64,000 nt of DNA from the NCBI RefSeq assembly GCF_025698545.1, contig NC_068569.1, positions 9,176,001 to 9,240,000 of the forward strand, read 5' to 3'. The notes under the pieces are model-generated. The model saw nothing but the letters and a program-made list of their open reading frames with translations, was not told the origin of the DNA and did not search any database. This DNA is from Gossypium raimondii. Taxonomy: Eukaryota > Streptophyta > Magnoliopsida > Malvales > Malvaceae. The position numbers were made by a program, and so were the translations under genes. Shown piece by piece: positions 43,973 through 45,908 of this stretch (positions within the stretch are counted from its first letter, which is position 1; every line of letters begins with the position of its first letter).

Positions 43973-45908
43973 TTAAGCATCGCCATTATCTCCAAGAAAT
44001 GGGTAATCAGTGTAACCAATGACTGGATCAGATGTATAGAAACTACTCCTGTCATACTTATTAAGAGGGGCACCAAGCTCAAATCTCCTTGGCAAATCCG
44101 GATTGGCCAAAAACAATCGACCGTAAGCAACAAGATCAGCTCGGTTCTCAGCCACAGCATCGTTTCCATCATCTCTACCATAGCCCCCAGCAGCGATGAA
44201 ACTGCCATTAAATGCCTTTCTCATTGGCACAAGACTTTGAGGACTTTCACACACTTCCATCCCTATTTTAATTCTTGGCTCCACCATATGGCAGTAGAGA
44301 ATTCCGTATTTGTTCAAGGCCTCAACCATGTAGAGGCCTAATGCTTGTGGATCAGAGTCCACTGACTCCATGAATTCTGTATAGGGAGATAGCCTTATTC
44401 CCACTTTATCTGCTCCTATTTCACTGGCAACAGCTTCAACTATCTCTAAGGCAAACCGGCATCGGTTTTCTAATGACCCCCCATATTGATCTGTCCGATC
44501 ATTCACTTGATCTTTCAAAAACTGTTCTATTAGGAAGCCATGAGCTCCATGAATCTCAACTCCATCAAAACCTATAAATCAGCCACCAAAATTAGCACCC
44601 ATTTCATATAATTTTAACGAATCCGAGACATCCTCTAAGTTTCTTTATTCAGAATCTAGGAAAAAGAACATACCAGCTTCCATAGCATTCCTTGCTGCAA
44701 TTCTGAAATCATTGACAATCTGGGGAATTTCATCAGTCCGTAATCGCCTCGGAGGTGAGAAGTCCGCAACATCTACTCCACTAGCTTGCAGTTGTGGTGT
44801 CAACGCCTTATCAGTACAGGAGATTGGAGGTTGTCCATTTGGCTGAAAACCTGTAAACATTTGCAAATAATAAACCATTACATGGTGCCCAATGCCATCA
44901 CATGAATATCAAAATTCACCAGAAAAGAATCACGTGGGGCCATGCTATCTGGAAATAAAGTTACAAAACAAACTTTGGGTATCAAAAAGTAGTATTTGTC
45001 TGGATTCAAAACCTACGTTTTCCTTTTATATAATTTGGCTAGAACCCTTACATCATAGCATGCAGCAATAAAGTATCGGAGATAAGAATTCAGACATTAG
45101 GGCATTGATTTTTCAATCATCCATTCACTATTGAATTTTCATGTAAATGTCACTGAATTTGGTCACAGAAAGAGAAGACTAAATGGAGGTGTTGTGCGAG
45201 AAGAAGAAGAAACCTGTATTTGAAACCCTTCCAACATGCGCAATCTGACAAAAGAAAATTCCACCTTTCGCATGAACAGCATCAACAATGGGTTTCCAGG
45301 CCTCAACTTGCTCTTTCGTCCATATACCAGGTGTATATTGATACCTTCATTGTTATTTTTTTTTGGGGGGGGGGGGTCAAGTTAATTTTTGGGGTTTATA
45401 AAAAGAGAGAGAGAGAGAGCGCAAAATTTCAACTTTTTGAGATTGATTACCCTTGAGCTGTATCAGAAACTCCAGTACCCTCAGCCAGCAAAAGACCTCC
45501 TTTGGAAGCTCTCTGGGAATAGTATAGAATGGCATGTGGTTGAGGAACATTATTGTAAGATCTTTGTCTAGTCAATGGAGCCAATACAATTCTGAAACAA
45601 GACAAAGAGAGGTAAAATTATGAAGCTAGTCAGTCAATTAACTTTAATATTTTACAGAAAAAAAAAGTTACGCGAAGTGGGATTTTCAACTAAACAAAAA
45701 TATGCTGGCTCATTAGGAAATGAGGGTTGAGATTTTGCATCAGAAATTATACAAACAATATAATGGGAACCAAAAAGCTAGAAAGAAGGCAAAACTGCTG
45801 TTATTGAGAAATCAGAAAAGGGGTTTGTTGCAATAATTACCTATGAGAAAGATTGAATTTGCCAAGTTTGAAGGGGGCGAGAAGAGGTTGAATGGTGGTA
45901 TCTTCCAT
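43973..45908 (-). CDS. OPR: 12-oxophytodienoate reductase, group I, copy 1
   Basis: A flavin (FMN) enoate reductase of the old yellow enzyme family. Exons (minus): 45908-45841, 45591-45451, 45344-45214, 44850-44674, 44571-43973; all junctions and phases agree and give 371 residues, the normal OPR length. Motifs: [60 protein letters not shown], the substrate-binding HGAH (His180, His183), and the FMN-phosphate loops [10 protein letters not shown] and [17 protein letters not shown]. Odd points: the proton-donor Tyr of HGAHGY is Phe185, QIWHVGR reads [16 protein letters not shown] reads GYQYTPGIW, and AEATG reads AEGTG. There is no C-terminal peroxisome signal (ends GDA), so it is the cytosolic OPR1/2/11 group rather than OPR3. 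It may be an altered or weakened enzyme. Confidence 0.92.
45351..45420. repeat. Homopolymer T/G run and GA repeat in OPR copy 1 intron 2
   Basis: A T-run followed by about 13 G residues, and about nine GA dinucleotides near 45403-45419, sit just before the intron 2 acceptor region (minus sense). Copies 2 and 3 lack both. Confidence 0.85.

Follow-up and report, generated by a model that had tools for sequence, protein, structure and literature searches.

Old yellow enzymes (OYEs) use NAD(P)H to reduce their FMN, polarise the carbonyl group of the substrate with a His/Asn or a His/His pair, and transfer a hydride to C-beta before a tyrosine, the textbook proton donor of this family, protonates C-alpha. 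The 64-kb window (the whole stretch of DNA analysed here) carries three tandem OPR genes of this family, and a sequence-only reading had noticed that two of them encode a phenylalanine in place of this tyrosine. We ask how the two copies came to lose the tyrosine, and whether they are FMN proteins with an altered chemistry or surplus duplicates on their way to decay.

Results and Discussion

Three tandem OPR genes with intact reading frames

The three OPR genes form a head-to-tail array on the minus strand, as follows: copy 1 (43973..45908), copy 2 (49964..51884), the canonical-Tyr copy, and copy 3 (56331..58253). In our gene models, where the exon joins were set by homology to known OPRs, each copy comprises five exons of identical lengths (68, 141, 131, 177 and 599 nt), forming a CDS of 1116 nt that encodes 371 amino acids with no internal stop, and every intron has a GT donor and an AG acceptor. 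The exons are located at 45908-45841, 45591-45451, 45344-45214, 44850-44674 and 44571-43973 in copy 1; 51884-51817, 51568-51428, 51333-51203, 50839-50663 and 50562-49964 in copy 2; and 58253-58186, 57935-57795, 57700-57570, 57209-57033 and 56929-56331 in copy 3. The Oxidored_FMN domain (PF00724) is full-length in the three proteins, with scores of 285-291 bits against a curated cut-off of 27 (E 1.9e-85, 1.8e-86 and 9.7e-85 for copies 1, 2 and 3, respectively). Copy 2 is 75% identical to Arabidopsis OPR1 (AtOPR1, 1vji), 73% to tomato OPR1 (SlOPR1, 1icp) and 56% to an OPR3 chain (8qne), and these higher identities to AtOPR1 and SlOPR1 place the array in the OPRI subgroup (AtOPR1/2-like), on the basis of pairwise identities.

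Upstream of copies 1 and 3, the segments 46823-47464 and 58411-59085 are 74% similar. Since the long match between copies 2 and 3 stops at 58399, i.e., 146 bases 5' of the ATG of copy 3, the promoter of copy 3 is probably different.

The gene-cluster context was explored by scanning seven ORFs of the window against Pfam. They include the N-terminal part of a BAHD-type acyltransferase (307-786, minus strand; PF02458, E 4e-36, above the cut-off), which we take to be most like the hydroxycinnamoyl transferase HCT; a DnaJ-like fragment (41968-42276, plus strand; PF00226, 26.8 bits, just under the cut-off of 27.8); and an ORF (33716-34228, plus strand) with a weak Pfam match, below the cut-off, to an unrelated phage family, and which presumably resembles a plant PIF/Harbinger-type transposase.

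The proton-donor tyrosine is replaced by phenylalanine in copies 1 and 3

The motif CAT-GGA-GCT-CAT-GGC-T occurs with 0 mismatches on the minus strand of each gene (44551-44536, 50542-50527 and 56909-56894), while a fourth match, at 62315, has 2 mismatches and lies outside all three OPR genes. The spliced models assign codon 185 to TTC (Phe) in copy 1 (44534..44536, minus strand), TAC (Tyr) in copy 2 (50525..50527, minus strand) and TTC (Phe) in copy 3 (56892..56894, minus strand), as stated in the sequence-only reading, where the active-site block was given as HGAHGF in copies 1 and 3, and HGAHGY in copy 2. The same reading had equated this site with Tyr192 of tomato OPR1, and the alignment agrees: residue 185 is aligned with chain position 192 of SlOPR1 (1icp), and with position 199 of 8qne, which we take to be Tyr190 of SlOPR3 (offset of 9). 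The equivalent residue is a Tyr in all aligned PDB chains (AtOPR1, SlOPR1 and the OPR3 chain). By counting from His191 in the active-site list given in PMC4002455, residue 185 corresponds to Tyr196 of OYE1. Copy 2 possesses the proton-donor Tyr of canonical ene-reductases, which is replaced by Phe in copies 1 and 3; these two copies carry the signature of the EasA/SubF type, namely a Phe at the Tyr196 position. The most defensible claim of this study is that two of the three young tandem OPRs have lost their proton donor, through one mutation that was probably shared by conversion.

An error of sequencing or assembly at these codons is very improbable. The three copies are 92-97% alike and invite chimeric assembly, but the sequence variants around the Phe codon are not the same in the two loci that carry it, and the Trp-to-Ala replacement of copy 1 described below consists of two neighbouring base changes, which is not a homopolymer slip.

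The phenylalanine is derived, and rare in bacterial relatives

The source genome (751 Mb, 281 contigs) was scanned with two protein queries, so that the counts of OPR loci are lower bounds. It contains at least seven OPR loci, namely the three array copies, two OPR1-like loci on contig C1, and OPR3-like loci on C5 and C6. Because the four OPR loci found outside the array have Tyr185 (they also have Trp105), we regard Phe185 as the derived state.

Both OPR1-like loci of C1 have a damaged look: in L027 (C1:14334800-14338500) the PRRL...EAG part of exon 4 is unmatched, and in L028 (C1:28698300-28704300) exons 1-2 are broken. It may be that no OPR1-type gene of this genome is intact outside the array.

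Among 30 bacterial relatives fetched, the site is covered in 29, with Tyr in 28, Gly (as aligned) in one (L034) and Phe in none. A scan of 190 genomes from a single bacterial class gave the motif with Tyr in 98 of them (158 matches, summed by hand) and with Phe in four (4 matches), the reversed-pattern control giving 0 in the rows of both scans. Three of the four Phe-form matches lie in OYE-like genes: L061, a 41% identical OYE relative in which the proton donor is replaced by Phe (IHAANGF) and the Trp is retained, and L062 and L064, which encode distant OYE-like proteins. The fourth (L063) does not appear OYE-like (E 0.02). A natural Phe at the proton-donor site exists but is rare in the bacterial class scanned. 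The Gly-bearing relative L034 (801-1880) is an OYE from Bacteroidetes in which Ala occupies the Trp116 site and the proton-donor Tyr is missing (HAGNAG), and as such it is a natural bacterial parallel to copy 1.

In searches of one open-access library, no report of a Tyr-to-Phe loss in plant OPRs was found among the matches listed, and the strings HGAHGF and HGANGF were absent from the literature searched. The searchable text of two OPR family papers, PMC10132601 and PMC2688005, holds no active-site information, the latter being without the terms 'tyr' and 'active site'.

The two phenylalanine codons lie in a shared mosaic tract

Over the shared blocks, similarity is 97.0% between copies 2 and 3, 93.9% between copies 1 and 3, and 91.9% between copies 1 and 2. 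The informative sites are not evenly distributed, and reveal a mosaic tract of about 680 bp, which starts at the end of intron 3, reaches about codon 278 in exon 5, and includes codon 185. Inside the tract 22 of the 26 informative sites join copies 1 and 3 against copy 2, as compared to 15 of 78 elsewhere, while outside it 63 of 78 join copies 2 and 3; none of 500 permutations produced so strong a tract. On the minus strand, it spans 44255..44937 in copy 1, 50926-50246 in copy 2 and 56613..57296 in copy 3, the probable acceptor of the conversion, which is 97.0% like copy 2 over the whole block.

The tract common to copies 1 and 3 is probably best explained by gene conversion, and the two Phe are probably not independent losses; two separate losses of Tyr were rejected as the less simple account, since the copies have this 680-bp tract in common. 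With Tyr as the ancestral state, a single change in the lineage of copy 1 followed by conversion into copy 3 is the simplest history, the direction being deduced from the similarity of the flanks. Alternatively, it is possible that copy 2 reverted to Tyr, or that the tract was created by a chimeric assembly of the closely similar repeats.

Other functional residues differ between the copies

The sequence-only reading had described the exons, the His-His pair and the FMN loops as otherwise intact. This holds for the exons, the FMN sites, His180 and His183, but the active site as a whole is not otherwise kept: Trp105 is an Ala in copy 1, and Arg272 is a Ser in copy 3. The residues kept in the three copies are His180, His183, Pro28, Thr30, Gln103, Arg232, Arg324, Tyr345, Arg347 and Tyr351. 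The FMN sites (Thr30, Gln103, Arg232 and Arg324) and the His-His pair match AtOPR1, SlOPR1 and the OPR3 chain, with the exception of position 183, which is an Asn in AtOPR1. Arg324 and Arg347 are the equivalents of SlOPR3 Arg343 and Arg366, NADPH residues that have been called indispensable in that enzyme.

In copy 1, codon 105 is GCG (Ala; 45239..45241, minus strand), a two-base change from the TGG found elsewhere; the other two copies and the three PDB chains have a Trp here. It corresponds to OYE1 Trp116 by count, being two residues past the FMN-binding Gln114 (PMC4002455). According to PMC6497740, the W116A mutation in OYE1 switches the stereopreference for an ethyl ketone, whose conversion falls dramatically, and has little effect on a methyl ketone; the docking in that study explains the switch by an enlarged pocket, with the substrate in a flipped pose. 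The Trp116 site varies outside plant OPRs (Trp 18, Met 5, Gly 3, Ala 2, Gln 1 and Ser 1 in the 30 bacterial relatives), and the idea that a Trp-to-Ala change at this position is unique was rejected.

In copy 3, codon 272 is AGT (Ser; 56631..56633, minus strand), where both other copies and the three PDB chains have an Arg. The alignments to 3hgo (hand count, offset 6) and to 8qne (offset 9) equate this residue with SlOPR3 Arg283. As reported in PMC13140739, Arg283 is part of the clamp that holds the adenine of NADPH, and its substitutions lower the NADPH activity moderately while increasing the NADH activity.

At codon 239, which corresponds to SlOPR1 position 246, copies 1 (44372..44374) and 2 (50363..50365) have TTC (Phe), and copy 3 (56730..56732) has TAC (Tyr), all on the minus strand; Tyr is also the residue of AtOPR1, SlOPR1, L027 and L028. 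We presume that this position is that of OYE1 Phe250, with a role in gating; in the bacterial relatives it varies widely, more so than the Trp116 site. The residues at positions 105-185-239-272 read A-F-F-R in copy 1, W-Y-F-R in copy 2 and W-F-Y-S in copy 3. Out of 24 variable residues, four occur on known functional sites, as compared to 0.9 expected by chance with 14 mapped sites (P 0.009), or P 0.022 and 0.045 with assumed lists of 18 and 22 sites, the sites having been named after the data were seen.

The 'QYT' of copy 1 at positions 72-74 had been considered as a sign of decay. This was rejected because Gln72 and Thr74 occur in AtOPR1, leaving only Tyr73 as unusual.

Purifying selection on copy 2, relaxation or diversification in copies 1 and 3

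The changes unique to each copy (nonsynonymous:synonymous, N:S) are 11:1 in copy 1, 8:8 in copy 2 (omitting its ancestral Tyr185) and 7:3 in copy 3, these being unrooted counts with unpolarised synonymous sites. Tested against the neutral expectation, copy 2 departs from it (P 0.015), and copies 1 (P 0.32) and 3 (P 0.70) do not. Fisher's test gave P 0.039 for copy 1 versus copy 2, and P 0.075 for copies 1 and 3 together versus copy 2, i.e., contrasts of small numbers that are significant only in part. The pairwise dN/dS values are 0.65 (copies 1-2), 1.33 (1-3) and 0.42 (2-3), with 0.15 for exon 5 of copies 1-2, and positive selection over whole genes is unsupported, no omega being significantly above 1. 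In exons 1-4, copies 1 and 2 differ by 15 N and 0 S changes in 172 codons (P 0.017, uncorrected for the choice of the region); the other pairs gave P 0.18 (1-3) and P 0.33 (2-3). Together, these data indicate that copy 2 is under purifying selection, and that the two Phe copies are relaxed or diversifying, with their frames retained.

The absence of synonymous changes in exons 1-4 of copies 1 and 2 is itself odd (P 0.006 versus introns 1, 3 and 4, which differ by several percent between these copies).

These counts bear on a first rival explanation, namely that copies 1 and 3 are redundant duplicates under relaxed constraint, losing function and tolerating catalytic changes en route to pseudogenes. 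We hold it as a tentative possibility, at somewhat less than even odds. It is favoured by the following lines of evidence. First, the N:S ratios of both copies are like neutral and unlike that of copy 2. Second, Trp105, Tyr185 and Arg272 have changed, though they are identical in copy 2 and the three PDB chains. Third, the OPR1-like loci L027 and L028 of the same genome look damaged. Against it, the three 1116-nt CDSs have no stop and no indel, whereas the introns carry 5 (copies 1-2), 5 (1-3) and 4 (2-3) indels and the flanks of the copies also carry several; at the intron rate, about 5.6-6.9 exon indels would be expected where 0 are seen (P 0.001-0.004). Moreover, copies 1 and 2 diverge less in their exons (2.3-2.9%) than in their introns (6.8%, a value to which the low-complexity intron 2 contributes much; 35/710 = 4.9% without it), and the concentration of four of the 24 variable residues on functional sites also speaks against mere relaxation, keeping in mind that these sites were picked post hoc. 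The earlier argument that retained frames oppose simple decay is upheld by the missing exon indels, but it is weakened by the neutral-like N:S of the Phe copies, with which relaxed constraint remains compatible.

A proposed history and chemistry of the array

Starting from the observed residues, frames, polarity of the change, mosaic and N:S pattern, and taking all the chemistry from homologous enzymes, we propose, with a probability of roughly 0.6, that a triplication left the canonical copy 2, while copies 1 and 3 lost the proton-donor Tyr through one mutation and a conversion, and are impaired in enone reduction. An OPRI-type (AtOPR1/2-like) gene would have been recently triplicated in tandem in a cotton-like plant, a single TAC to TTC mutation would have arisen in the lineage of copy 1, and gene conversion would later have carried it into copy 3. 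Copy 2 would most likely be a working canonical reductase. In copies 1 and 3, FMN binding, reduction by NAD(P)H and hydride transfer to the substrate would persist, but the enolate would no longer be protonated, and the normal reduction of enones or OPDA-type compounds would be strongly impaired. The intermediate might then be handed back (isomerisation), or the flavin might be re-oxidised by quinones, nitro compounds or oxygen. In copy 1, the Ala at the Trp116 position may enlarge the pocket and let substrates bind in another orientation, and in copy 3 the loss of the Arg283 clamp may make the enzyme less strict for NADPH.

Since Phe replaces Tyr while other mapped sites are kept, one would naturally expect copies 1 and 3 to be FMN proteins that are impaired in reducing enones. 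The statement of the sequence-only reading that Tyr-to-Phe strongly slows this step in OYE1 agrees with PMC13107220, where the Y196F mutation is reported to slow the canonical reaction of the yeast enzyme by 6 orders of magnitude. Its suggestion that the outer copies have an altered chemistry is consistent with the Phe, with the retained FMN and His sites and with the size of the Y196F effect, which lead one to expect impaired enone reduction, but it was incomplete in that it missed the second losses, of Trp105 and Arg272.

A second rival, which together with relaxed constraint makes up the two branches of our preferred explanation, holds that the Phe copies are neofunctionalised 'interrupted' ene-reductases, selected to isomerise, cyclise or otherwise redirect an enal or enone, like the fungal EasA and SubF. 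Taken by itself we consider it rather unlikely, new function and early decay being about equally likely. EasA, with its Phe, isomerises chanoclavine-I aldehyde, while its Phe-to-Tyr form reduces that aldehyde (PMC4303823), and SubF, with a natural Phe, forms a C-C bond (PMC13107220). The substitution in copies 1 and 3 is identical to that of EasA and SubF; the reading frames are intact; the other mapped FMN, hydride and NADPH residues are kept, except Arg272 in copy 3; a second pocket change is stacked in copy 1; and the uncorrected 15 N:0 S of exons 1-4 in copies 1-2 is also in favour of a new function. There is a plant precedent too, in that a Tyr-to-Phe switch of the proton donor opens new reaction types in aromatic amino acid decarboxylases (PMC11308512). 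On the other hand, no whole gene has an omega significantly above 1, no biosynthetic gene cluster was noticed among the seven ORFs scanned in the window, and Phe is not decisive in the fungal enzymes: as reported in PMC13107220, the F176Y mutation costs SubF less than 10% of its product and the Phe-to-Tyr form of EasA is said to retain significant isomerase activity, so that Phe alone does not dictate the reaction, and the authors of that paper consider Phe helpful as a signature for mining, though not strictly necessary. Furthermore, isomerisation does not require Phe, because Tyr-bearing OYEs can isomerise a butyrolactone (OPR1, less than 1%; PMC3533789).

According to a third rival, which we judge improbable, the Phe copies are still ordinary reductases, acting on substrates that do not need the Tyr proton (quinones, nitroaromatics), or on enones protonated by water or by another residue. 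In favour of it, the Tyr has no part in hydride transfer, which is the first step, morphinone reductase is reported to lack this Tyr, and the bacterial relative L034 is also without it, with an Ala at the Trp site. Against it stands the very large effect of Y196F on the canonical reaction (PMC13107220).

Comparison with known systems

The array shares its active-site frame with tomato OPR1 and Arabidopsis OPR1, at the 73% and 75% identities given above, but these enzymes have both the Tyr that is replaced by Phe in copies 1 and 3, and the Trp that is replaced by Ala in copy 1. With respect to OYE1, copy 1 naturally combines the equivalents of W116A and Y196F (by count from Gln114 and His191), which have been engineered in the laboratory and studied with model substrates. 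The fungal EasA and SubF, likened here by their published descriptions, are OYEs with a natural Phe at the Tyr196 position and a redirected reaction (PMC4303823, PMC13107220); they differ from the array in being fungal and located within alkaloid gene clusters, and in SubF the Phe matters little. These fungal enzymes give the cotton array its interest, in that the natural loss of the OYE proton-donor Tyr led to new reactions in fungi.

In G. hirsutum and G. barbadense, the OPR genes are reported to occur only on chromosomes 01, 05 and 06, with four OPRs on GH_D05 and two on GH_A05; GhOPR4, 7, 8 and 9 cluster with AtOPR1/2, and GhOPR8/9 are tandem duplicates (PMC7600627). GhOPR7/8/9 resemble the present array in being OPR1/2-type genes that include tandem duplicates (GhOPR8/9), and the four OPRs of GH_D05 are matched on C5 by one OPR3-like locus and the three array copies. 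Since the OPR loci on C1, C5 and C6 mirror chromosomes 01, 05 and 06, the array probably corresponds to GhOPR7/8/9, as judged from numbering and layout, contig numbers being assumed to equal chromosome numbers. The systems differ in their counts, PMC7600627 giving only three OPRs for G. raimondii, and for GB_D05 one fewer, as compared to the seven loci found here. In roots challenged with V. dahliae, GhOPR7, 8 and 9 were up-regulated, GhOPR9 more than 100-fold at 24 h, and the knock-down of GhOPR9, in which GhOPR8 was silenced too, reduced resistance; the terms 'active site', 'Tyr' and 'catalytic' are absent from the text of that paper (PMC7600627).

From these likenesses one may venture, as a long shot drawn by analogy, that in D-genome cottons tandem duplication, point mutation and conversion have given rise to a plant equivalent of the interrupted ene-reductases of fungi. 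Copy 1 (with the equivalents of Trp116Ala and Tyr196Phe) and copy 3 (Tyr196Phe and a loosened NADPH clamp) would, in pathogen-induced roots, convert an oxylipin or terpenoid enal by isomerisation or cyclisation, next to copy 2 as a conventional reductase. The cotton locus that the array resembles is implicated in Verticillium resistance and has been discussed as a jasmonate-pathway gene, and the array, whose three nearly identical members differ from one another at four known functional sites, constitutes a ready natural experiment.
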